Shown: piece after piece, positions 1-16,447 of the stretch
Numbering within the stretch: the stretch's first letter is position 1
How the letters are laid out: every line of letters starts with the position of its first letter
NCBI GenBank assembly: GCA_900551265.1
Contig: URVL01000026.1
Coordinates: 1 to 19,491, forward strand
Source of the DNA: an uncultured Eubacteriales bacterium
GTDB taxonomy: Bacteria > Bacillota > Clostridia > Oscillospirales > QAMX01
DNA length: 19,491 bases
Reading direction: 5' to 3'
Program-made: the position numbers and the translations under genes
The notes under the pieces: generated by a model
Told to the model about the DNA's origin: nothing
The model's input: the letters and a program-made list of their open reading frames with translations, nothing else
Databases searched by the model: none

Positions 1-386
1 CGGATTCCGCGGGAGGCGCCCTTTAAGATCGGAAGCTTATCAAGAAAGCTTTCTTCTCCCAGCTTATCGATTCCCACATCCTTTACCTTAACCATCAGCT
101 CCGACATCATGTCGCCCACATAACCGCTGTCCTTGCTGCGCACCTGTGTGAGGATATTGTCAGAAAAGCTGGAAATATTCCGCTGCGCCCCCACGCCGTA
201 CTGAAGCGCGGCCTGGGAATCCATCAGGTCGATGCTGTTTTTGACCTCCTCTACCCGTGCTTTCTGCTCCGGACTCAATTCTTCCACCTGAGCGCGCACC
301 GCTTCCACGCTTGCAGGCTTCTGCACTTGCAAGGCGGTATGTCCTTTACTCTGCATCAAAGCATCCAGTGTGATAGAATCTGCCAT
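1..386 (-). CDS. Toxic anion resistance protein TelA/YaaN family, N-terminal part (runs off left edge)
   Basis: Only the first 128 residues lie in the window. The start ATG (386-384) follows a GGAAGGAG site and sits 20 bases after the preceding gene, so it is the last visible gene of the operon. Residues such as DLMDSQAALQYGVGAQRNI, FSDNILTQVRSKDSGYVGD and the end of a helical stretch (DKLPILKGA) match the start of TelA (Pfam TelA, linked to tellurite and other toxic anion resistance; YaaN in Bacillus). Family members are soluble, mostly helical proteins of about 350-400 residues; the biochemical activity is not established. In Bacillus the homologue is next to xpaC, and here an XpaC-type gene lies two genes upstream, which supports the call. 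The C-terminus cannot be judged. Confidence 0.88.
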   Translation of the reverse strand, partial: MADSITLDALMQSKGHTALQVQKPASVEAVRAQVEELSPEQKARVEEVKNSIDLMDSQAALQYGVGAQRNISSFSDNILTQVRSKDSGYVGDMMSELMVKVKDVGIDKLGEESFLDKLPILKGASRGI

Positions 387-406
387 CTTTTATCTGCTCC
401 TTCCCG

Positions 407-1462
407 CTATGAAAGCGCTTTAATGATCCTGTCCATGGTATTGGCATCCGGCATGGGCGCTACCTGCGTCAATTCCTCGGCAATACCGGACACCCCGAAA
501 TGGGCTGCATCCGTGGGGGTATCGTATACGCCAGTACGGAACCCATGCTTTTCCCAGGCCAGTCGCTGGATGTCCTCGTCCAGCAAGGCGTCGATCCCCG
601 CCGTACCGGCCTCATCCAGGGCGATATACACATGGGAGGACCAGACGGTGGGCGTCGGGTACATCATCACAATGTCCCCCTTGATCTGTTCCCAGGTATC
701 CGGGTTTTCCACGGCGAATTCCAGCAGCTGGTTTTCATAGCCGGCGATCAGAGGCTTGGCACCCATGCCGGTCTTCAGAAACTGATCGAACAAATCCGAG
801 GAGGAGCTTTCCATATACCCCAGCTTCTGAAAAATATTTTGCAGCCGGGGCAGGATCTCCGCCAGATTGCTTTCGTCCGCCACGCCGCCGCAGAGGGTAT
901 TGGCCAAAAGCCCGGCGAACATATTGCCGGAATTGGATTTGGTCGGGTCGGTGGTGCCCACGGAAACACTGCCGTAAAGCTGGGGAAGGCCGATTTCCTC
1001 CCAGGTTGTGCCGGCTTCTATGGTCTCGGTCAATTTTTCCATGTCCACCGTGTATACGCCGTTTGTAACGACAGCAAGCCCGCTGTCGACCAAGGCCTGC
1101 GCCACGACGCTGCGGGTATACAGGACGATGGGTGTATTGAGGATGATCTCGCTTTTCACCGGGTCTCCATGAACCTGCTTATACAGTTCCAGAGCCGTCT
1201 GATTGGAGGGGAATAGGAAATCCCGCCCCTCGGCGTCGTCGGTGACCATATCGATGGAACCTGCCTTGGCGTAGTCGATGACCAGCCGATACCTGTCCCG
1301 CAGGATATCCTGTACCTCCTCGTCTTCCAGCAGGCCGATTTTTTCGCCGCCCACATAACCGTTGATTTCAGTAACGGTTTGGCTATTACTGATGAATACA
1401 TAGGCAGCGGCGGCTATGATGACAGCTGCCAGGATGCCCAGCCCAATGAGCTTGGTTTTCAT
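407..1462 (-). CDS. Membrane-anchored extracellular solute-binding-like protein
   Basis: A 351-residue protein with one N-terminal hydrophobic segment (about residues 5-24) after MKTK and no lipobox cysteine, so it is probably tethered outside the cell by an uncleaved or signal-type helix. The body resembles a type 2 periplasmic-binding fold: the stretch TTDPTKSNSG at about 170-179 matches the ligand-loop motif of the SBP_bac_11-like family, and a similar motif is present in the VWA lipoprotein of the same operon. The start codon overlaps the stop of the XpaC gene by four bases (ATGA), indicating translational coupling; telA follows after 20 bases. No ABC permease or ATPase is nearby, so a sensing or scavenging role is more likely than classical import (inference). 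The ligand is unknown; an oxyanion would fit the TelA partner. Confidence 0.75.
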   Translation of the reverse strand: MKTKLIGLGILAAVIIAAAAYVFISNSQTVTEINGYVGGEKIGLLEDEEVQDILRDRYRLVIDYAKAGSIDMVTDDAEGRDFLFPSNQTALELYKQVHGDPVKSEIILNTPIVLYTRSVVAQALVDSGLAVVTNGVYTVDMEKLTETIEAGTTWEEIGLPQLYGSVSVGTTDPTKSNSGNMFAGLLANTLCGGVADESNLAEILPRLQNIFQKLGYMESSSSDLFDQFLKTGMGAKPLIAGYENQLLEFAVENPDTWEQIKGDIVMMYPTPTVWSSHVYIALDEAGTAGIDALLDEDIQRLAWEKHGFRTGVYDTPTDAAHFGVSGIAEELTQVAPMPDANTMDRIIKALS

Positions 1463-2067
1463 TTTCCGCCCTCCATTTTCAAGGTGCTTTTCAGGAGTTC
1501 GATATCTGCCTCGATATCCAGCAGCTCGCCCTGCATCAGATGGGCAAACTGCTTTTCAAAGGCGGAGTTCAGCACCGGCAGGGCCTCCGCCGTCTTTTGC
1601 AGAATATCGGCGACCTCCCCCGAATGAAGCTCCGTCTCCTGGAAATCCACATATCTTGTCAGCAATTTGGCGGCCGTATCCAGATAATAGGTAAAGAAGC
1701 GGCGCGCCAGCTTAATTTTGTCTGGATTTTCCTCCAGATAGGTTAGGATCCGGGCCCCGGTAGCATATAGAGCCTGCGCATCCTGCCGCACAGAGGAAGT
1801 TTTGATCTCTTTTACTGCTTTATCAATGTCTGCCAGGTCCGCCTGGGCATCGTCCAAAAGTTGCCGGATCTCTTCACCGCCAGGCATAGATTCCACATCA
1901 ATTCCCGCGATTTTCCGGCTGGGCTTGAGCAGGAAAAACAGTCCGAAATAGATGCCGACACACAGCAGGATGCAGACAATCAGATTCCAATGGAAAAATA
2001 GGAACAGTAGCAGGAAGACGATTGCAGCAGCAAAGGAGGAAACGAGCATTCGCGAAGTCTCTTTCAT
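1459..2067 (-). CDS. XpaC-like 5-bromo-4-chloroindolyl phosphate hydrolysis family membrane protein
   Basis: A 202-residue protein. Two hydrophobic segments fill about residues 8-48, separated by a short WN turn, followed by a long charged helical domain (about 50-200) with heptad-like character that would face the cytoplasm. This is the layout of the XpaC/Halogen_Hydrol family. XpaC was named for hydrolysis of the chromogenic substrate X-phosphate in Bacillus, but the real function is unclear. In Bacillus subtilis xpaC is next to the TelA homologue yaaN, and the same partnership is seen here. The ATG overlaps the stop of the upstream VWA gene by one base (TGATG) and its own stop overlaps the downstream start, so stoichiometric expression is likely. 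It may be the membrane link between the outside binding proteins and cytoplasmic TelA (inference). Confidence 0.78.
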   Translation of the reverse strand: MKETSRMLVSSFAAAIVFLLLFLFFHWNLIVCILLCVGIYFGLFFLLKPSRKIAGIDVESMPGGEEIRQLLDDAQADLADIDKAVKEIKTSSVRQDAQALYATGARILTYLEENPDKIKLARRFFTYYLDTAAKLLTRYVDFQETELHSGEVADILQKTAEALPVLNSAFEKQFAHLMQGELLDIEADIELLKSTLKMEGGK

Positions 2068-3674
2068 CAGTTATACCCCTTTACGCTGCGGAACGCCTCC
2101 GTCAGATTCTCCCGGCCGTCGAACACCCGGGCATTGGTATACCGCGCCAGCTCCTCCAGTTGGGTTTCGTCAGCGTCTCCAAACATGATGGAGAAGACCG
2201 GGACCTCAGTTCCAAGCCCGGCGTAAGCCGCCTCAAAATCGGACAGGGACCCGCTGGACTGCCCGTCGGTGAGCAGGATGATCGCCGGCGTATACTGCGA
2301 CAGATCATATTCTCCCAGCAGCTCAATCCCCCGCACGGCGGCCGCGTACATATCGGTACCGCCGCCTACTTCCTGGTTTTCCACTTTGTCATAAAGCGCT
2401 TCCAGCTCGCTGCCGTTGCCTGTGGCCGTATAAGTGTCGATCACGCCCCCGTTAAAGGGAATAAGGATATTCACCTCGTTTTCTGATGCCTGCAAGAAGT
2501 TTTTCCGGGCGTTCTCCTGGATGAGCAGCTGCTCCATGGCCTGAACCAGCTGTTCATTTCCCTCGCCGCTCATGCTGCCGGAGTAGTCCAGGCAGTACAC
2601 GGTAAGGGAAGGCTTGCGGAAATCGGTTTGGTATAGATTTAGGCATTCAAACAGAACATCGGCAGCTGGCATTTTGATGGGGGAGAGCACCCGGTCGGGC
2701 TGCAGGCCCCAGTCGGCCCGGAATACATCCTTGTTTTTCTCCGAAACCCCGGTGTAGCCAGAACGGCGGCCGGTGCGCTGGATCTCGTCCTGCACATCCT
2801 CCGACAGCAGGTATTCCTGCAATTTTAAAAACAGTTCCTCCTGGCCATCGTCCCCTTTGTCCACATAGCCCAGGGGCGAATCCGCCAGCGAAAGACCGTC
2901 ATAGGGGTACACTACATACAGCGGCTCCTCGCCACGCTCTTCCAGTTCCCGGTTGGCCTGGATGACCAGGCACTCGTAGTTCACCATAGCGTCATAATCG
3001 CCCTGCAAGAACATGTCCTTCAGCCAGTCCGAGCTGCCGGAGGAGCGGTCCACGCCGGAGAGAAGCTCCTGCATTTGCGCCCTCAGTTCGTCACTCTGCA
3101 GATCCTCCGATGTGATGACTTCCGGGTTGCCCAGGAGCGCGTACAAAAATCCGATATACGCGCTGGCGCCGGAATTGGACTGAGTGGCGCTGGTCATGCA
3201 GAAGCGGAGTTTTCCGTTCCGGATCGCCTCAAGAAGGTCGTTTACCGACACCTCCCGCCCCACAAATCCCAGCTCCTCCGCCAGGCTTTTGCGGATACCG
3301 AACACCACCGGCGAAATGGAGATGGATTCCGCGTGCTTGATCCGGTGTTCCGTATCCCCCACCGTCAGCCACAGGCGGCTGGCCGGCCACACGGCGTCAT
3401 AGGGGATGTCTTCCTCTCCCAGTAGACGCATGATATCCAGCGAGCCCATATAGGTCATCTCAATGCGCACATGCTCCCTGTCGGAAAACTCCTCCAAGAT
3501 CGGTTCCAGTTCGGAATTTTCCGATCCGGAAACAATACGCAGCACCGAGCTACCACCACCCAAAACCGTGTCGGCTTCACCTCCGTCCGTGCTTCCTACA
3601 TTGCAGCCGCTGAACATTGTCAGTATCACGAAAATAGACAGCAGACAACCAATAAAGCCCCTTTTCATTTTCAT
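2067..3674 (-). CDS. Lipoprotein with substrate-binding-like domain fused to a VWA domain
   Basis: A 535-residue protein. The start at 3674 (MKMKRGF) is preferred over the in-frame ATG at 3713 because AAGGAAGGGG lies just upstream of it and the signal peptide then begins properly. Residues 1-24 form a lipoprotein signal ending in FSGC with Cys24 as the lipid site. Residues of about 45-320 look like a type 2 periplasmic-binding domain, with the ligand-loop stretch TSATQSNSG at 161-169. Residues of about 355-530 form a von Willebrand A domain with a complete MIDAS: D363-x-S365-x-S367, T440 and D470 (LLTDG). It is therefore expected to bind a divalent metal and a protein or ligand outside the membrane. 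It is first in the operon with XpaC and TelA proteins. Binding-domain plus VWA proteins are known as a conserved architecture without a clear function. Confidence 0.82.
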   Translation of the reverse strand: MKMKRGFIGCLLSIFVILTMFSGCNVGSTDGGEADTVLGGGSSVLRIVSGSENSELEPILEEFSDREHVRIEMTYMGSLDIMRLLGEEDIPYDAVWPASRLWLTVGDTEHRIKHAESISISPVVFGIRKSLAEELGFVGREVSVNDLLEAIRNGKLRFCMTSATQSNSGASAYIGFLYALLGNPEVITSEDLQSDELRAQMQELLSGVDRSSGSSDWLKDMFLQGDYDAMVNYECLVIQANRELEERGEEPLYVVYPYDGLSLADSPLGYVDKGDDGQEELFLKLQEYLLSEDVQDEIQRTGRRSGYTGVSEKNKDVFRADWGLQPDRVLSPIKMPAADVLFECLNLYQTDFRKPSLTVYCLDYSGSMSGEGNEQLVQAMEQLLIQENARKNFLQASENEVNILIPFNGGVIDTYTATGNGSELEALYDKVENQEVGGGTDMYAAAVRGIELLGEYDLSQYTPAIILLTDGQSSGSLSDFEAAYAGLGTEVPVFSIMFGDADETQLEELARYTNARVFDGRENLTEAFRSVKGYN

Positions 3675-3743
3675 AGTGAGACCCCTTCCTTTGCCAAAAT
3701 TCGTATATTGCAAAGTAAATATTTTTTACAATTACAACAACCC

Positions 3744-3772
3744 ATTATATTTTACAATGCGTCGTGTAAAAT
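3744..3772 (-). promoter_or_regulatory. Promoter and palindromic operator of the VWA-XpaC-SBP-TelA operon
   Basis: On the minus strand a perfect TATAAT lies at 3749-3744. Touching it is a perfect inverted repeat, ATTTTACA (3749-3756), eight bases, then TGTAAAAT (3765-3772). A TTTACA within the distal arm could act as the -35 box but at a short 15-base spacing. A further TTTTACAAT copy lies at 3724-3732, downstream in the direction of transcription. The arrangement fits a repressor site over the promoter. The regulator is not identified. The leader to the start codon would be about 60 bases. Confidence 0.55.
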
Positions 3773-3774
3773 CT

Positions 3775-4056
3775 GCTACCTCAGCAAGGTAAAAGATATG
3801 TATATTTGGAGCAGTATGTGGATGGAGGGCATAGAATAAAACAAAGATGCTGAACTTGACGACACCGCAAAAAATAGACGATATCGCAAACAACAAGGCT
3901 GAGAAGCATCTTTTCCTAACAGAATGAAAAACGCCACATACAGCGGCAGAAATGCCTCAAAATTGACCCGAAATCACACACAAAAGCGCTGATATATGCC
4001 ACACCCCCTTTGGCAGAGAGCAATTCTCGATTTCTCTTAAAGATTCGTAATAGGTA
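3775..4056. other. Intergenic stretch with a pair of direct repeats inside a long inverted repeat
   Basis: No convincing gene is seen here. Two near-identical 14-base copies, GACGACACCGCAAA (3858-3871) and GACGATATCGCAAA (3877-3890), lie 19 bases apart. They are enclosed by AAAGATGCT (3843-3851) and its complement AGCATCTTT (3905-3913). The stretch lies between the TelA operon promoter and the XRE-recombinase pair, so it may hold the left end or a protein-binding site of the mobile element. That is inference; no matching copy was found to the right of the recombinase. Confidence 0.3.
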
Positions 4057-4085
4057 TTGCAATTATCTCTGATTTGTATTATACT
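4057..4085 (+). promoter_or_regulatory. Sigma-A-type promoter for the XRE-recombinase pair
   Basis: TTGCAA (4057-4062), a 17-base spacer, and TATACT (4080-4085) form a good housekeeping promoter about 28 bases before the regulator start codon. The short leader carries the GGAGGTG ribosome site. Confidence 0.65.
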
Positions 4086-4113
4086 ATATTCAAGATGAAT
4101 TGGAGGTGCTTTG

Positions 4114-4461
4114 GTGAATACAGTTGGTGAGCGTTTGAAAACCCTGCGTGAGGGGATGGGTCTTTCGCAAAAAAAGATGGCTGAACTGTTGAATGTGACC
4201 CAGCCGAGCATCAACCGGTACGAACACGGGAAAGCGGTTCCTATCGAAGTGCTGATCGGGTATGCAGACTATTTTGATGTCTCGATGGACTATATCACCT
4301 GCCGCTGTGACGAGCCGCAGGGCAAGCTGTATCAGGCACGGCCGCCGCTCTCTGACAATCCGGAATTGGGAAAGTTTATCGAGATGTGCTTTGACCCACA
4401 TTCTCCGATGAACGGGCGGTTGAAAGAGGCCCTGTTCCGCATGATGGAGGGTAAACAATGA
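4114..4461 (+). CDS. XRE-family helix-turn-helix transcriptional regulator
   Basis: A 115-residue protein if the GTG at 4114 is used; GGAGG at 4102-4106 is seven bases from it, while the TTG at 4111 is only four bases away. An HTH_3 domain fills about residues 5-60, with the recognition part LSQKKMAELLNVTQPSINRY followed by EHGKAVP and a DYFDVSMDYI end, a classic Cro/CI-like layout. The C-terminal half is unassigned. It overlaps the recombinase start by four bases (ATGA), so the two are cotranscribed. Its most likely job is repression of its own promoter at 4057-4085 and hence of the recombinase (inference). Such XRE plus serine recombinase pairs occur on many integrative elements of Clostridia. 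Confidence 0.88.
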   Translation: MNTVGERLKTLREGMGLSQKKMAELLNVTQPSINRYEHGKAVPIEVLIGYADYFDVSMDYITCRCDEPQGKLYQARPPLSDNPELGKFIEMCFDPHSPMNGRLKEALFRMMEGKQ

Positions 4462-5997
4462 AAGCTGTGATTTACGCCCGATATTCTTCCGATAATCAGA
4501 GAGAAGCAAGTATTGAAGGACAAATCCGGGAGTGTACCGCCTTTGCCGAAAAGAACGGGATCACAGTCCTGCGGCACTATATCGACCGAGCTATTTCCGC
4601 TAAGACGGATAACCGGCCTGAATTTCAGAATATGATTAAAGACAGCAATAAAAAGCTGTTTGATATGATCATTGTCTGGAAACTTGACCGGTTTGCCCGG
4701 AACCGCTACGACAGCGCCCGGTATAAAGCGCAGCTCAAGAAAAATGGTGTGAAAGTGGTTTCCGCTACGGAGGTCATTTCAGACGGCGCGGAGGGGATCA
4801 TTCTGGAATCCATGCTGGAAGGTTTTGCCGAGTACTATTCGGTTGACCTCTCCGAAAAAGTCGTGCGCGGCATGACCGACAATGCTCTGAAATGTATGTT
4901 TAACGGCGGGACGCTGCCGATGGGGTATGTGATTGACGCGGAACAGCATTTCCAGATCGACCCGGTCACGGCACCGTATATTCTGGACGCTTTCAAACAG
5001 TATGACGAAGGCGCGACTATGACGCAGATTCGGGACTGGCTCAACGAGCAGGGCATGAAAAATACCCGTGGAAATCCCCTGACCTACAACAGCGTACAGC
5101 ACCTATTGAAAAACCGCCGCTACATTGGCGAATATCAGTACAGGGATATTCTCATTCCTGATGGCATACCTGCTATCGTACCGAAAGACCTTTTTGACCG
5201 GGTACAGGCCAAAATGGAGAAAAACAAGAAAGCCCCGGCTCGTCACAAGGCTGAGGACGATTATCTGCTGACAACCAAATTGTTCTGCGGGTACTGTGGA
5301 GCCTATCTCTGTGGCGAAAGCGGCACCAGCCGCACCGGAGTTGTCCACCACTATTACAAGTGCGTTTCGGTAAAAAAGAAGCGCAAGGAATGCCACAAAA
5401 AGCCGGTTAAGAAGGGTTGGATTGAGGATTTGGTTGTCTCCGAGACCATGAAGATGATCATGGATGACGATGCAATCGAAGCTATCGTTTCGATGCTCAT
5501 GGAGCTGCAGGAACAGGACAACACCAATATTCCCCTGTACGAACGACAGTTACAGGAAACGAATACCAAGATTCGCAACTTGATAAATGCGATCCAACAG
5601 GGTGTTTTGACCAAATCCACGAAAGAGAGCCTTGAAGAATTGGAGGCGGCAAAAGAGGAATTGGAAAACCCGTCTTGCCAATGAGCAGTTGTCCAAGCCT
5701 CCCAAGGTCAGCGCGGAGTTTATGACCTTCTGGCTCCACCGCTTCCGCAAGCTGGATGTCACCAAGCAGAGCCACCGGAAAATGCTGATAGACACCTTTA
5801 TCAATGCGATTTATCTTTATGACGATAAGATGCTGATCACCTTTAACTACAAGGACGGGACGAAGAAAATCACTTTCAGCGAGATACAGGAAGCCTCTAA
5901 ACGGGATGCTTCTGGTTCGGATTTGGAATGCTCACCGGCACCACGCCGGAGTAAAATTTGTTTTGCTCCGGCGTCTCTTTTGTTCCTCTTGTCCTGA
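4458..5997 (+). pseudogene. Large serine recombinase, frameshifted near its C-terminus
   Basis: The first frame (4458-5687, stop TGA at 5682-5684) gives 408 residues. It has the resolvase N-terminal domain with YARYSSDNQ, catalytic Ser10 (Arg8 nearby) and the DRFARNRYD motif around 77-85; a recombinase domain at about 145-260; a zinc-ribbon with Cys277, Cys280, Cys302 and Cys312; and a coiled coil from about 345. The family's usual end (RLANEQLSKPPKVSAEF, then FINAIYLYDDKMLITFNYKDG and SGSDLECSPAP) continues in the +1-shifted frame up to 5997. Removing one A from the AAAA run at 5665-5668 restores a single protein of about 512 residues. The catalytic domain is intact, so a truncated but partly active protein cannot be excluded; a sequencing error or programmed slippage is also possible. 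Such enzymes insert or excise elements at specific att sites. Confidence 0.85.
5944..5973 (+). terminator. Hairpin at the end of the recombinase gene
   Basis: CGCCGGAG (5944-5951) pairs with CTCCGGCG (5966-5973), extended inward by AAAA/TTTT with one mismatch, and is followed by TCTCTTTTG. It overlaps the last codons of the shifted recombinase frame, which is usual for this recombinase family. Confidence 0.55.
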
Positions 5998-8570: not shown

Positions 8571-9731
<1,161 letters not shown>

Positions 9732-10889
9732 TCACCGGAACAACAGCTGCGCAAATTCGCGCAGGCTGTAGCGCCATACGTCCCATTCATGATAACCGGG
9801 ACGCGTGTATTCTACACCGTGAATTCCTTTTTCTGCAAGCGTTTTCAGCGTGTCATGATTTGCTTCCGTCATGCGCTCGCTCTCGCCCGCAGACACAAAC
9901 AGGACCCGGATCAGACGGTTGAACCGTTCGGCGTCCTCAAATGCCGCAGACACGTCGAAATCGCCGAACATTCCCTTCGGGCTGATGCCTCCCGAAAAGA
10001 CGCCGATGGCGGAGAACAGGTCCTCCATATGGTTGAGTCCGATCGAAAACGCCTGTGCGCTGCCAAGCGAAAGGCCGGCAATGGCGCGGCTCTCGCGGTC
10101 CGAACGCGTACGGTATTTCGCGTCAATAAACGGGATGCAGCCCGCCGTCAGTTCCCGGTCAAAGTCGCCGGGCAGGAACATATTGATCTCGCCGTCTACA
10201 AATGCATAGCCGGAGTTCATCACCACGAGCATCGGTTCGCACTTGCCTTCCGCGATGAGGTTATCCAGAATATAATTGAGCTTGCCCTGCCAGATCCAGC
10301 CCGTTTCGTTCTCGCCGACGCCATGCTGGATATAGAGGACGGGATAGCGGCGGTCTGTCTGCGCATCGTAACCGGGAGGCGCGTACACCCATGCGGCCTT
10401 CCAGCGTCCGTTGACAGGGGACTGATAAAGCTCCATACGCACATCGCCGTGCGGCACGTCCTGCAAGAGGAAAAAATCCGCGTCGCGGTCGGGCATTTCA
10501 AAGAAGTTGCAGACATAAAATCCTCCGTACCCATAGGGTGCGAGGGGGTTCAGCGTTTTTACGCCGTTGACATAGAAATCGCAATAGTGGAAGCCGGGGT
10601 TGATATCCTCCGCCGTGCAGCTCCAGTAGCCGTCGCCGCAGGGCGCAAGGTCATAAGACGCGCTCATGGAGCCGCCCCACCCCTTCACGCGCACGCTCCC
10701 GGCGTCCGGCGCATAGTAGTTAAAACGCGCCACGCCGAAATCCAGGATTTCCACGCCGGGCTTTTCGTCCACATAATAAATACGGTTACGCCCATTTTCG
10801 CCCTTTTCAAACACCGCTTTTTTGTTCAGCGGGTCAAAATAGAGCATGTGCTGGGAAAGCGCCTGGTTCTCTAAGATAGGGTCTTTCAT
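9732..10889 (-). CDS. Cytosolic CE1-like esterase, paralogue 2 (variant nucleophile elbow)
   Basis: A 385-residue protein, first in the minus-strand unit, with AAGGAGGGAGG just before the ATG. It has the same two-part layout as its neighbour: an N-terminal beta-sandwich (about 45-115, CGDGYWSCTAEDI, GFHYCDFYVNG) and a hydrolase domain. Its motifs are YIQHGVGENETGW, GLSLGS with Ser274, SAGESE in the acid loop (Glu336 or Glu338, where paralogue 1 has GEDE), and His367 in PGYHEWDVWR. The segment [20 protein letters not shown] is nearly identical to that of paralogue 3, so these two share ancestry most clearly in that part. The elbow and acid changes suggest a different substrate or altered activity (inference). 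No signal peptide is seen, so it should be cytosolic. Confidence 0.84.
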   Translation of the reverse strand: MKDPILENQALSQHMLYFDPLNKKAVFEKGENGRNRIYYVDEKPGVEILDFGVARFNYYAPDAGSVRVKGWGGSMSASYDLAPCGDGYWSCTAEDINPGFHYCDFYVNGVKTLNPLAPYGYGGFYVCNFFEMPDRDADFFLLQDVPHGDVRMELYQSPVNGRWKAAWVYAPPGYDAQTDRRYPVLYIQHGVGENETGWIWQGKLNYILDNLIAEGKCEPMLVVMNSGYAFVDGEINMFLPGDFDRELTAGCIPFIDAKYRTRSDRESRAIAGLSLGSAQAFSIGLNHMEDLFSAIGVFSGGISPKGMFGDFDVSAAFEDAERFNRLIRVLFVSAGESERMTEANHDTLKTLAEKGIHGVEYTRPGYHEWDVWRYSLREFAQLLFR

Positions 10890-12248
<1,359 letters not shown>

Positions 12249-13087: not shown

Positions 13088-14752
13088 TTATTTCAATGTC
13101 TTTGCGTAACTGTCTTTCAGGCTCACCGTACGGTTAAATATCGACGGGTTCTTCGTGTCGCGGCAGAAGTAGCCCAGGCGCACGAACTGGAAGCGTTCGC
13201 CGGGCGCGGCGCCGGCCAGCGCCGGTTCCAGCTTGCAGCCGGTGAGATGTACAACGGATTCGGGGTTAATATAGTCGTCGTAGGTCTTATCCTCCGGCAT
13301 GTCGTTCACATCTTCCAACGTGAAGAGGTTGTCATAAAGGTCGATATCGGAATCCACGGCATGCCGGGCGCTGACCCAGTGAATGGTTCCGCGCACCTTA
13401 CGGCCGTCCGACGGCATACCGTCGCGCGAGACCAGGTCGGCGGTGCAGACGATCTGCGAAATGGAACCGTCGGCGTTTTTTTCTACCCGTTCGCACTTCA
13501 CAATGTACGCGCCCATGAGCCGGACCTCACGTCCCGGCGTCATACGCTGGAACTTGGGCGGCGGCACTTCGGCAAAGTCGTCCTCCTCGATCCACAGCTC
13601 CCGGGTAAACGGCACCTCGCGTTTACCTGCCTCCGGATCCTCGGGGTTATTTGCAATAGAGAAATACTCAGTCTGATCCGCCGGGTAGTTTTCGATGACG
13701 ACCTTTACGGGCTTTGTCACGGCAATACGGCGCAGGGCGGTTTTATTCAACTCTTCGCGCAGGCAGTGCTCCAGCAGACGAATATCAACCAGGCTGTCGT
13801 TTTTTGCAACGCCCACGCGGCCCAGGAAATCAATAATCGCATGCGCGGTATATCCGCGGCGGCGCAGGGCGCACAGCGTAGGCATACGCGGGTCGTCCCA
13901 ACCGTCCACAATACCGGTCTCGACAAGCTTGCGCAGGAAGCGCTTCGACATCACCGTGTGCGTAAGATTCAGCCGTGCAAATTCAATCTGGCGCGGATGG
14001 GCGTCCAGACCGCAGTAGGCATTGACCTTTTCCACCACCCAGTTATAAAGCGGACGGTGATTTTCGTACTCGAGCGAACACAGGGAATACGTAATGCCCT
14101 CCAGCATGTCCTGCACCGGGTGCGCATAGTCATACATCGGGAAAATGCACCACTTCCTTCCCTGGCGGTGATGCTCGATATAGCGGATTCGGTAGAACAC
14201 CGGGTCACGCATATTGAAGTTGCCGGAGGCCAGGTCGATTTTCGCACGCAGGGTATACTTCCCCTCCGGGAACTCGCCCGCGCGCATGCGGCGGAACAGG
14301 TCCAGCGATTCTTCGACCGGACGGTCGCGGTACGGCGACACGGCAGGGTGCGTCAGATCGCCGCGGTACTCGCGAAACTGCTCCGGCGTCAACTCGCAGA
14401 CATAGGCGTCGCCATGCAGAATGAGCTGTTCGGCAAACTCGTAGGTTTTTTCAAAGTAATCGGAGCCGTAATAGAAGCGGTCGCTCCAGTCAAAGCCCAG
14501 CCAATGGATGTCCTCTTTGATCGCGTCTACAAACTCCGTATCCTCCTTCGCAGGGTTTGTATCGTCCATACGGAGGTTGCACAGGCCGCCGTACTTTTTG
14601 GCCGTGCCAAAATCCACCAGCAGCGCTTTGCAGTGCCCGATATGAAGGTAGCCGTTTGGCTCCGGCGGGAATCTCGTATGCACATGGTCGGCACGGCCCG
14701 CAGCGAGATCCTCATCGATCAGATCGTGGATAAAATTATTGGAATCACTCAT
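13088..14752 (-). CDS. glnS: Glutaminyl-tRNA synthetase
   Basis: A full-length 554-residue class I synthetase that attaches glutamine to tRNA-Gln in the cytoplasm. The HIGH signature is present as GYLHIGHCKA (HIGH at 37-40) and the KMSKS loop as VMSKR (267-271). The catalytic half (about 25-335) contains RMDDTNPAKED, which marks GlnRS over GluRS, and the C-terminal half (about 340-554) is the two beta-barrel anticodon-binding region. The length is usual for bacterial GlnRS. TGAGGTGA precedes the ATG. It lies 45 bases after gltX and ends at a strong terminator. Many Firmicutes instead make Gln-tRNA by amidation with GatCAB; GlnRS in Clostridia is generally thought to be acquired. Whether GatCAB is also present cannot be seen here. 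Confidence 0.96.
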   Translation of the reverse strand: MSDSNNFIHDLIDEDLAAGRADHVHTRFPPEPNGYLHIGHCKALLVDFGTAKKYGGLCNLRMDDTNPAKEDTEFVDAIKEDIHWLGFDWSDRFYYGSDYFEKTYEFAEQLILHGDAYVCELTPEQFREYRGDLTHPAVSPYRDRPVEESLDLFRRMRAGEFPEGKYTLRAKIDLASGNFNMRDPVFYRIRYIEHHRQGRKWCIFPMYDYAHPVQDMLEGITYSLCSLEYENHRPLYNWVVEKVNAYCGLDAHPRQIEFARLNLTHTVMSKRFLRKLVETGIVDGWDDPRMPTLCALRRRGYTAHAIIDFLGRVGVAKNDSLVDIRLLEHCLREELNKTALRRIAVTKPVKVVIENYPADQTEYFSIANNPEDPEAGKREVPFTRELWIEEDDFAEVPPPKFQRMTPGREVRLMGAYIVKCERVEKNADGSISQIVCTADLVSRDGMPSDGRKVRGTIHWVSARHAVDSDIDLYDNLFTLEDVNDMPEDKTYDDYINPESVVHLTGCKLEPALAGAAPGERFQFVRLGYFCRDTKNPSIFNRTVSLKDSYAKTLK

Positions 14753-14797
14753 CGTGTGTCACCTCAGTGTTATTTCAAAATGATTGGCCGCGTATGG

Positions 14798-16447
14798 TCA
14801 GGAAAGCCTCTCTATCATCGAGGCAATCCGCGCACGTACGCGCGTCTCGCCCAGTACGCGCATCACTTCAAACATATCCGGGGAATTCTGCTTCCCCGTC
14901 ACAGCGATACGCAGGAACATGCTGACATCCGCCACGCTGCCGGGATACTGCTCCGGCGCGGCGCGGTACGCCTTCATGTCGGCGGCAAAGCCCAGCGAGC
15001 CCGCAACTGCCTTAATCTTGTCAAACCATACGGACTGTTCGTCCGCCGGATCATACGTCGCAAGAAATGCCTCCAGCGCGGCGCGGATCGTACTCCGCGC
15101 AAACTGCTCCGGGTAGGCGTCCTCAATTTGGAACAGTTCGTCAAAGAAGAAGCCCAGATACCCGCGCACCTCGCGCCACAGAGCAAAATCCTTACGCGGC
15201 TTTTTGCCGCCGCGCCCGATGGCGAGCGCCGCGCGGGCAAGCTCCGGCTGAGACCCCAGGCAGGCGGCAAATTCGCGGTCGAATTCGTCTGCCCAGGCCA
15301 GCACCTCCCGGTAAACCGTATCCGCGCTCATGCGCGAGATCACGTCCTTTGACACGTCGCGCAGCTTCATCACGTCGAAGAGCGCGCCGGCGGGGTTCAT
15401 TTTTTTATAGGAAAACCTGAACTCCGAGGCCGGAAGCATGGGATTCGCACGCCGCCAGTCCTCGAAATTGGAATTGAGTATGGTGAGCAGATATTCATAG
15501 ATGGAGTCAACCGGATACCCTTCGGCCTGGTAAAACGTCAGAGCAAGCTCCGGATCCTTGCGTTTGGAGAGCTTGCGCTTGCTTGCCCCGTCCATTTTTT
15601 GCAGCGGTCCAATATGCAGGTACTTCGGCGGACGGAAGCCCAGCGCGTTGAAAAGCTGAAGGTGAAACGGCAGGCTCGGCAGCCATTCATCTCCGCGCAC
15701 AACGTGCGTAGTGCGCATGAGATGGTCGTCCACCGCGTGGGCAAAGTGATAGGTCGGAATCCCGTCCGACTTCAAAAGCACATGGTCGATATCGTTCTCC
15801 GTCAGCTCAAGATTTCCCTTAATGAGGTCGGTGAACTTGATTTTCCGCGCAATGGAACCCTCCGAACGAAAACGCAGAACCCAGGGACGGCCTGCGTCCA
15901 GCATGGCGCGGATGTCCGCAAGGGGCCGGTCGCGCCACACGGCCCAGCGGCCGAAGTAACCGAAGTTGGCCTTTTCGGCTTCCTGCTCCTCATGCATCCT
16001 GGCCAGTTCTTCCTCCGTGCAGAAGCACGGGTACGCATGGCCCTCCTGTACAAGCTTTTTGGCGTAGACATGGTAGATCGCAGCGCGTTGGCGCTGGCGG
16101 TACGGGCCGTATGCCCCGCGCTCTCCGTCAACCGTGGCGCCTTCGTCAAATTCAATATGGTAATGGCTCAAAGCCCGAATTAACGTTTCCACCGCACCGG
16201 GGACCTCGCGTTTTGCGTCCGTGTCCTCGATACGCAGGTAGAGCACGCCGCCGGACTGGTGCGTCATGCGCTCCGAAGTGAGGCCCTGCACGAGGTTCCC
16301 AAGATGAACAAACCCCGTCGGACTGGGGGCAGCGCGCGAGACGACGGCCCCTTCGGGCAGTTCGCGCGCGGGATATCGGGCCTCCATGTCCTCCGGCGTC
16401 TCGGTGACATCCGGGAAAAGAAACTGGGCAAGCGCTAGATAATCCAT
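14798..16447 (-). CDS. gltX: Glutamyl-tRNA synthetase, atypical 549-residue type
   Basis: A class I synthetase that attaches glutamate to tRNA-Glu. PSPTGFVHLGN (41-51) is the HIGH-type motif, LYLRIEDTDAKRE (69-81) the glutamate-pocket signature, and KLSKRKDPE (292-300) the KMSKS loop. The stretch CFCTEEEL (141-148) falls in the zinc-binding region but only part of a cysteine set is visible. Usual bacterial GluRS is about 480-500 residues; this one has a longer N-terminus (about 35 residues before the HIGH region) and a longer C-terminal part, typical of a second GluRS type in some Clostridia. GGAGG precedes the ATG. It is first in the operon with glnS, which suggests it may serve only tRNA-Glu while GlnRS serves tRNA-Gln (inference). 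Confidence 0.94.
   Translation of the reverse strand: MDYLALAQFLFPDVTETPEDMEARYPARELPEGAVVSRAAPSPTGFVHLGNLVQGLTSERMTHQSGGVLYLRIEDTDAKREVPGAVETLIRALSHYHIEFDEGATVDGERGAYGPYRQRQRAAIYHVYAKKLVQEGHAYPCFCTEEELARMHEEQEAEKANFGYFGRWAVWRDRPLADIRAMLDAGRPWVLRFRSEGSIARKIKFTDLIKGNLELTENDIDHVLLKSDGIPTYHFAHAVDDHLMRTTHVVRGDEWLPSLPFHLQLFNALGFRPPKYLHIGPLQKMDGASKRKLSKRKDPELALTFYQAEGYPVDSIYEYLLTILNSNFEDWRRANPMLPASEFRFSYKKMNPAGALFDVMKLRDVSKDVISRMSADTVYREVLAWADEFDREFAACLGSQPELARAALAIGRGGKKPRKDFALWREVRGYLGFFFDELFQIEDAYPEQFARSTIRAALEAFLATYDPADEQSVWFDKIKAVAGSLGFAADMKAYRAAPEQYPGSVADVSMFLRIAVTGKQNSPDMFEVMRVLGETRVRARIASMIERLS

Follow-up and report, generated by a model that had tools for sequence, protein, structure and literature searches.

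In Firmicutes, genes for XpaC and TelA are known to lie side by side, as in lmo1966-1967 of Listeria and llmg_1115-telA1 of Lactococcus, and the excerpts of these reports that we drew on mention no external binding proteins (PMC12791056, PMC3139573). The Ter/TelA stress systems likewise have a sub-membrane TelA together with a VWA protein, as the excerpted source describes them (PMC7824862). Signaling by a solute-binding protein (SBP) has a precedent in Staphylococcus HptA-HptS, where, according to part of one report, ligand-bound HptA shifts its contact on the kinase and so signals without transport (PMC8774646). Neither a signal nor a mechanism has been established for TelA and XpaC, both of them common proteins, and an external ligand-binding pair that is co-inherited with them is a candidate input. 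Here we describe such a pair in a 19,491-nucleotide (nt) stretch of DNA from an uncultured Eubacteriales bacterium (contig URVL01000026.1; "the window" is this whole stretch), in which XpaC (PF10112) and TelA (PF05816) are encoded together by Pfam. Four minus-strand genes stand at its left end, in the coding order SBP-VWA, XpaC, SBP2, and TelA.

2067..3674, minus strand: SBP-VWA, matching PF13531 (E 2.6e-14) and VWA PF00092 (E 3.1e-7) in Pfam; also alignment, AlphaFold2, and fold matches.
1459..2067, minus strand: XpaC, matching PF10112 (E 1.2e-27) in Pfam; also hydropathy and alignment.
407..1462, minus strand: SBP2, from AlphaFold2 and fold matches and from hhalign to the SBP-VWA binding domain; without a database family.
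3..386, minus strand: first 128 residues of TelA, matching PF05816 (E 3.1e-16) in Pfam; truncated at the window edge.

The start codon of SBP-VWA is the ATG at 3674; the open reading frame (ORF) lister had chosen a TTG at 3713. SBP-VWA and XpaC overlap by 1 base (2067), XpaC and SBP2 overlap by 4 bases (1459-1462), and 20 bases (387-406) separate SBP2 from TelA. These coordinates agree with a first-pass annotation of the window, which had described four coupled genes with overlaps of 1 and 4 bases and then a 20-base gap. Its gene identities were also correct, as judged by Pfam for SBP-VWA, XpaC, and TelA and by predicted structure for SBP2. In the nearest genome compared (G001, contig 77), the complete TelA has 377 amino acids. 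Searches of the window with Rfam at the gathering threshold and for tRNAs gave no match.

To survey the class, we used 342 genomes with a completeness of at least 85%. SBP-VWA had matches in 32 of them and was full-length in 10 (42 to 100% identity); the remaining 22 matches were weak and partial (21 to the VWA part and 1 to residues 1-99). SBP2 was present in the same 10 genomes and in no other. XpaC was far more common (81 of 342 over the cut-off), as was TelA (96 of 342). Presence is patchy, with SBP-VWA in G001 alone among 37 genomes of its genus, the completeness of which varies. Ten of the 11 loci examined first, from those 10 genomes and G045, had the order SBP-VWA, XpaC, SBP2, TelA on one strand. 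We also made a pattern scan of GTDB contigs, which yielded 375 SBP-VWA relatives; the best 80, referred to here as the named loci, lean to closer relatives. XpaC was next after SBP-VWA in 80 of 80 and SBP2 was third in 78 (L106 ends there, and L114 is without SBP2). With all genes on one strand, the gap was 50 nt or less, overlaps included, between SBP-VWA and XpaC in 79 of 80 loci and between XpaC and SBP2 in 77 of 78. This tight spacing is not due to chance, and SBP-VWA, XpaC, and SBP2 are a co-inherited unit. The gene order is therefore kept far beyond close relatives, a point fixed in advance as one on which the original proposal could fail. For counts of dereplicated loci, L116 (split SBP-VWA) was dropped, and the remaining 79 loci formed 59 groups at 85% identity: 31 with TelA, 22 without it, and 6 mixed or with too little sequence. 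Two loci had oddities, a TelA of only 157 amino acids in L114 and an SBP2 in two ORFs in L097.

TelA had been described as the fourth gene of the system. It holds that position in the window and follows in 46 of the 80 named loci, but it is not obligatory. The core consists of the three genes SBP-VWA, XpaC, and SBP2, and TelA is an optional neighbor. Thirty-four named loci have no adjacent TelA, and in the 20 of their genomes that were searched TelA was always found elsewhere; it is absent from G280. We examined 20 such TelA regions from 18 of these 20 genomes. Eighteen had another XpaC gene within 300 nt upstream, one was at a contig end, and one was Ter-like by eye. TerD-like genes were seen by eye beside some other TelA copies. 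Among the recurrent neighbors of the unit, no TerB/C/D-type cluster was noticed by eye, without a Ter profile search. G142 and G375, which also have the four-gene unit, contain second TelA loci (L170 and L171) with two consecutive XpaC genes, the second of which overlaps TelA by 4 bases.

Clustering of neighboring genes in the 80 named loci revealed no other gene that recurs beside the unit, save for the local synteny of one clade. ATP-binding cassette (ABC) ATPases were found in 21 of the 80, at scattered distances and, among the distances listed, twice within 1 kb. A nearest same-strand gene within 300 nt was found in 23 of 46 groups with room downstream and 27 of 56 upstream. An ABC permease was recognized in none of these 50 nearest neighbors, which were judged by eye with three checked by Pfam. 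This is in line with the earlier claim that the binding proteins come without an ABC permease or ATPase, because the clustering and the 50 nearest neighbors revealed neither as a conserved neighbor. The degraded copy L114 is followed by a Na/Pi-cotransporter-PhoU gene.

SBP-VWA has a type-II solute-binding domain at approximately residues 40-355 and a VWA domain at approximately 356-535 (AlphaFold2 mean predicted local distance difference test score [pLDDT], 89.9). It is presumably a membrane-anchored, extracytoplasmic protein. The VWA metal-site residues D363, S365, S367, T440, and D470 do not vary among the 11 aligned sequences, of which the window's is one; we read this site by the DxSxS ... 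T ... D pattern, which we take to be that of the metal-ion-dependent adhesion site (MIDAS). The first-pass annotation had called SBP-VWA a lipoprotein with a binding domain and a complete VWA MIDAS. The MIDAS stands, but the lipoprotein cysteine is absent from 4 of the 11 aligned sequences (by eye). SBP2 had no match in Pfam at E 0.1 and none in NCBIfam. However, AlphaFold2 gave it the fold of a type-II binding protein (mean pLDDT, 88.3) with a predicted N-terminal helix at residues 3-26, as expected for the second anchored binding protein that it had been proposed to be. SBP2 and the SBP-VWA binding domain are homologous (hhalign, 98.1%, E 1.3e-13). Both predicted folds resemble sulfate-, molybdate-, and hexose-phosphate-binding proteins (5um2, 1sbp, 6ddn, and 4r73 are among the matches). 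PstS is absent from the 50 fold matches listed, which excludes nothing.

In a simple hydropathy scan, XpaC has two N-terminal hydrophobic segments followed by approximately 150 residues, which are presumably cytoplasmic. Together with the PF10112 match, these segments justify its description as a two-helix XpaC-type membrane protein. There is hardly any outside loop between them. SBP-VWA and SBP2 are anchored and XpaC is nearly without an outside loop; therefore, any signal would have to cross via helix contacts. TelA would have to act from the cytoplasmic side.

We then considered the region upstream of SBP-VWA, which in the window contains two features.

3675..3810, minus strand: promoter region with two coding-strand TTTTAC half-boxes, at -97 and -120 from the ATG (plus-strand coordinates 3765-3771 and 3788-3794).
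3749..3772, no strand assigned: perfect inverted repeat ATTTTACA-N8-TGTAAAAT, in the promoter region.

TTTTACA occurs upstream of SBP-VWA in 30 of the 59 dereplicated loci, compared with 1.9 expected from shuffles, in which no 7-letter word exceeded 13. The null models for the motif tests were first-order Markov sequences. Repeats in the SBP-VWA promoters are spaced by 11, 22, and 33 nt. PHO boxes are built of 11-nt direct repeats, the same build, according to the excerpt of the report that we used (PMC4415409). In six genomes selected because the motif was clear, a two-box pattern had 26 matches, versus 13 when reversed. Twelve of the 26 were before five PstS-type genes, two phoH genes, two 5'-nucleotidase-type genes, one gene for an OmpR-family response regulator, and two copies of the operon; the other 14 were in or before other genes. 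Seven further genomes, of which four were chosen for a motif-bearing operon and three (G001, G328, and G365) came from the first operon-bearing set, had 27 matches versus 12 reversed. These included five operon copies, two PstS-type genes, one phoH gene, and two response regulator genes, with 17 in or before other genes. In 5 of 5 regions examined, the PstS-type gene was followed by look-alikes of pstC, pstA, pstB, phoU, a response regulator, and a kinase. The pstC, pstA, pstB, and phoU genes of L274 and the pstB and phoU genes of L277 were above the NCBIfam cut-off, and the other three regions were judged by eye. The regulator behind the box in G001 has PhoB as its closest model, at 242 bits (cut-off, 296), and shares 54% identity with a regulator adjoining phoU in G412. 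The box-bearing genes thus include the heads of pst-phoU operons and PhoB-like regulators, and therefore the motif marks phosphate operons.

We also built a matrix from ten non-operon sites of the first genome set and used the 95% and 99% limits of shuffles. Operons exceeded the 99% limit in 27 of 59 cases and the 95% limit in 38. The complete operon of Catenibacillus scindens DSM 106146 (L096) is an example with clear boxes. Among the controls, 2 of 377 neighboring genes and 2 of 29 classical XpaC-TelA loci passed. From these sequence patterns, the operon is predicted to be a member of the Pho regulon (PhoB/PhoP) in many gut Clostridia. This predicted Pho control is well supported for the operon family but not for the window's copy, the promoter of which appears as a degenerate relative of the 11-nt-repeat motif. 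The WalR consensus is the reverse complement of the same repeat. A reading as WalR boxes was set aside because the genes behind the motif are of the phosphate kind. The palindrome of the window was also rejected as a shared promoter element, because a looser form occurs in only 5 of 82 upstream regions, those of the window and its nearest copies. At L233, L237, L241, L246, L255, and L258, the halves of the PstS-type proteins match PstS/PBP profiles in swapped order, perhaps by circular permutation.

Outside the Clostridia, tblastn found SBP-VWA relatives (25 to 32% identical) in seven plasmid records, from Nonomuraea, Variovorax (three), Deinococcus, Sphaerotilus, and Miltoncostaea. Four of the seven have an adjacent SBP2 relative (E 1.3e-36 to 6.2e-60 with Clostridial profiles, which we used after discarding widened profiles that mixed SBP2 and SBP-VWA). 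In Nonomuraea, Variovorax, and Sphaerotilus the order is SBP2, TelA, SBP-VWA, and a membrane protein of approximately 210 amino acids, which is the Clostridial order rotated by two places; Deinococcus has the same order minus TelA. The Variovorax TelA is known from annotation and is missed by the Clostridial profile (E 0.54). Comparison with XpaC by hhalign (18%, E 0.0013) did not establish the membrane protein, which has one or two hydrophobic segments, as a homologue, and the three that were scanned had no convincing Pfam match. We treat it as a positional analogue of XpaC only. SBP2 has at least 1,562 relatives at E 1e-10, and the named ones among the 120 listed are actinobacterial. Upstream of SBP2 in Nonomuraea (L182, 4380-4633) there are tandem 11-nt repeats, with 18 of 18 positions matching at lag 11 (0 of 1,000 random sequences), a candidate actinobacterial PHO operator. 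Their letters fit only loosely to GTTCACC, which we take to be the PHO box. Pho boxes across other phyla were rejected as a general feature, because the 11-nt repeats were significant only in Nonomuraea. In Sphaerotilus, SBP2 is preceded at a distance of 4 nt by the end of a gene for a PhoX phosphatase. On the Variovorax plasmids (L183 and L190), a flotillin gene stands on one side of the TelA/SBP-VWA unit and Wadjet-type genes (JetA and others) stand on the other.

We tentatively favor the reading, to which we give slightly less than an even chance, that the unit is a non-transport, surface-anchored sensor of a phosphate-type ligand that acts via XpaC on TelA. The ligand of SBP-VWA and SBP2 would be a small oxyanion or an ester of one, with phosphate or a phosphate compound as the most likely candidate, and neither protein would feed a transporter. 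The state of the ligand might be passed to XpaC by contacts between membrane helices, perhaps aided by contacts of the VWA metal site between the external proteins. The cytoplasmic part of XpaC would then act on TelA, either adjacent or encoded elsewhere, to adjust the protection of the membrane or envelope. Phosphate-starvation control by PhoB/PhoP would match this protection to the phosphate supply. The ligand, the direction of signaling, the physical contacts, and the output of TelA are what we infer here. Phosphate is favored because the promoter motif and some of the gene context (PhoX and the Na/Pi-cotransporter-PhoU gene) point to it, whereas nothing that we found points to envelope damage, the other signal suggested by the first-pass annotation. 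A motif common to pst-phoU operons also names a concrete condition, phosphate limitation. A broader claim, which we consider rather doubtful, is that there is a widespread and undescribed class of signaling systems, in which a duplicated, non-transport oxyanion-binding pair with a VWA domain is under Pho control and reports external phosphate, or a phosphate compound, via XpaC to TelA. If true, this would provide the first natural signal for TelA and, across phyla, would connect "toxic anion resistance" proteins with phosphate homeostasis.

Several observations weigh against this phosphate-sensor reading. The anion proposed earlier as the signal accords with folds of the oxyanion-binding kind, but thiamin-, ferric-, and polyamine-binding proteins score close, and the thiamin-binding protein 2qry ties. 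XpaC has no external domain visible in the hydropathy scan. In the G280 genome, SBP-VWA, XpaC, and SBP2 are retained but TelA has no match. Outside the Clostridia the set can be incomplete: in the stretches read, no other parts were found with the SBP-VWA relatives of Miltoncostaea and of one Streptomyces record, or with the SBP2 relatives of two Streptomyces records. The motif evidence is also weakened. Because the two-box pattern comes from the operons and most of the scanned genomes were selected for a motif-bearing operon, its enrichment there is circular and only the link to phosphate genes is independent; 31 of the 53 matches in both genome sets are in or before other genes. Of the seven PstS-type proteins, six are below the TIGR02136 cut-off and match the PstS model only with its halves in swapped order. 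Part of the signal is due to base composition, since the reversed matrix passes 7 of 59 operons, and 32 of the 59 dereplicated loci fail the 99% limit. Groups with TelA in cis pass in 17 of 32 cases and those without it in 6 of 22. At 10.3, the score of the window promoter is above the 95% limit (9.0) and below the 99% limit (13.1), and only G328 and G365 pass among the 10 other early loci. Upstream 11-nt repeats were not significant in Sphaerotilus, Deinococcus, or Variovorax.

Other explanations share some of this evidence. The anchored proteins might detect or sequester toxic oxyanions, such as tellurite or arsenate, that enter via phosphate uptake, with TelA-XpaC conferring resistance and Pho control anticipating the threat. 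The name of the TelA family and the sulfate/molybdate-type folds fit this idea, and a mutant of the Listeria TelA gene lmo1967 shows a 2-fold higher susceptibility to tellurite. However, its susceptibility to nisin rises 4-fold, so that the tellurite effect is the weaker one, at least in the excerpt on which we rely (PMC12791056). In addition, the neighbor families listed contain no reductase, efflux, or other gene for resistance that is found repeatedly beside the unit, and we regard toxic-oxyanion protection as unlikely. The same nisin phenotype supports the earlier suggestion that the external proteins sense cell wall or membrane damage and activate TelA (PMC12791056). So does a part of a Lactococcus study in which overproduction of membrane proteins raised an XpaC-like gene 10.3-fold and telA1 3.44-fold, listed with cesSR (PMC3139573). 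Against damage sensing, the boxes are common to phosphate genes, only 2 of 29 classical XpaC-TelA operons pass, and folds of binding proteins suit small ligands. It has, in our view, a similarly small chance of being correct.

Alternatively, the external proteins might capture phosphate compounds and hand them in trans to Pst or Na/Pi importers encoded elsewhere, with XpaC-TelA as a scaffold only. This would explain the motif common to pst operons, the one locus with an adjoining Na/Pi-cotransporter-PhoU gene, and the type-II binding folds. However, no conserved permease or ATPase was recognized beside the unit, and a transport protein would not usually be fused to a VWA domain or strictly linked to XpaC. 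Therefore, we rate transport in trans as improbable, on a par with the two preceding explanations. An anti-phage or mobile-element function of the TelA kind seems very improbable. A block on phage entry has been proposed for Ter/TelA systems, according to the excerpted source (PMC7824862), the Variovorax copies adjoin Wadjet genes, and DNA approximately 98% identical to the window copy occurs in records of other genera. But PADLOC models matched 0 of 7 proteins at E 0.01, a phage collection had no SBP2 relative, viral contigs had no close SBP-VWA relative (only close relatives were sought), and the boxes are common to phosphate genes.

The window and its surroundings had some further features. 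DNA 97 to 99% identical to window positions 10-5943 is present in G001 (L006), Candidatus Merdivicinus (L065, in two pieces), and Gemmiger formicilis An723 (L066); in Ruminococcus turbiniformis (L067) such identity reaches window position 4810. This stretch spans the operon, an XRE-type regulator gene, and a large serine recombinase gene, and its right-hand ends differ. It looks like a recent transfer between genera. The serine recombinase gene (4458-5997) looks broken, because its frame ends at 5684 and the last part is in another frame (5632-5997); the L006 copy is also in two ORFs. Farther right, three related genes at 8571-12248 (two minus and one plus; 382 to 401 amino acids) resemble what we take to be alpha/beta-hydrolase esterases, and two adjacent minus-strand genes at 13088-16447 presumably encode glutaminyl- and glutamyl-tRNA synthetases.

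Parts of this system are already known. These are the XpaC-TelA pairs and the architecture of SBP-VWA, which has a database name. Records of a "substrate-binding and VWA domain-containing protein" in Variovorax and Streptomyces have this architecture and are annotated gene by gene. The Variovorax protein is 28.4% identical to SBP-VWA of the window and adjoins TelA and an SBP2 relative, and the Streptomyces protein is 26.5% identical to the Sphaerotilus relative. The three-gene core with an optional TelA, the homology of the binding domains, and the Pho-type promoter motif are new. We found no description of the four-part unit or of a link between TelA and phosphate in the open-licence PMC literature, although a 2012 Ter paper may cover part of it. 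The classical Firmicutes pairs are probably the same inner half, to which the unit adds two binding proteins, a TelA that may be elsewhere, and a Pho-like motif that classical pairs rarely have (2 of 29). In Ter/TelA systems the VWA protein is a counterpart, whereas in the unit an N-terminal anchor is followed by a binding domain to which the VWA domain is joined. The binding proteins of ABC importers (5um2, 1sbp, 6ddn, and 4r73) differ in that the unit has no conserved permease or ATPase recognized beside it, is membrane-anchored, and has one member fused to a VWA domain. The nearest precedent is HptA-HptS, where a binding protein of the same fold (6lkg, which we take to be HptA) signals for hexose phosphate. 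The unit might work alike, but the partner is a histidine kinase there and XpaC/TelA here.

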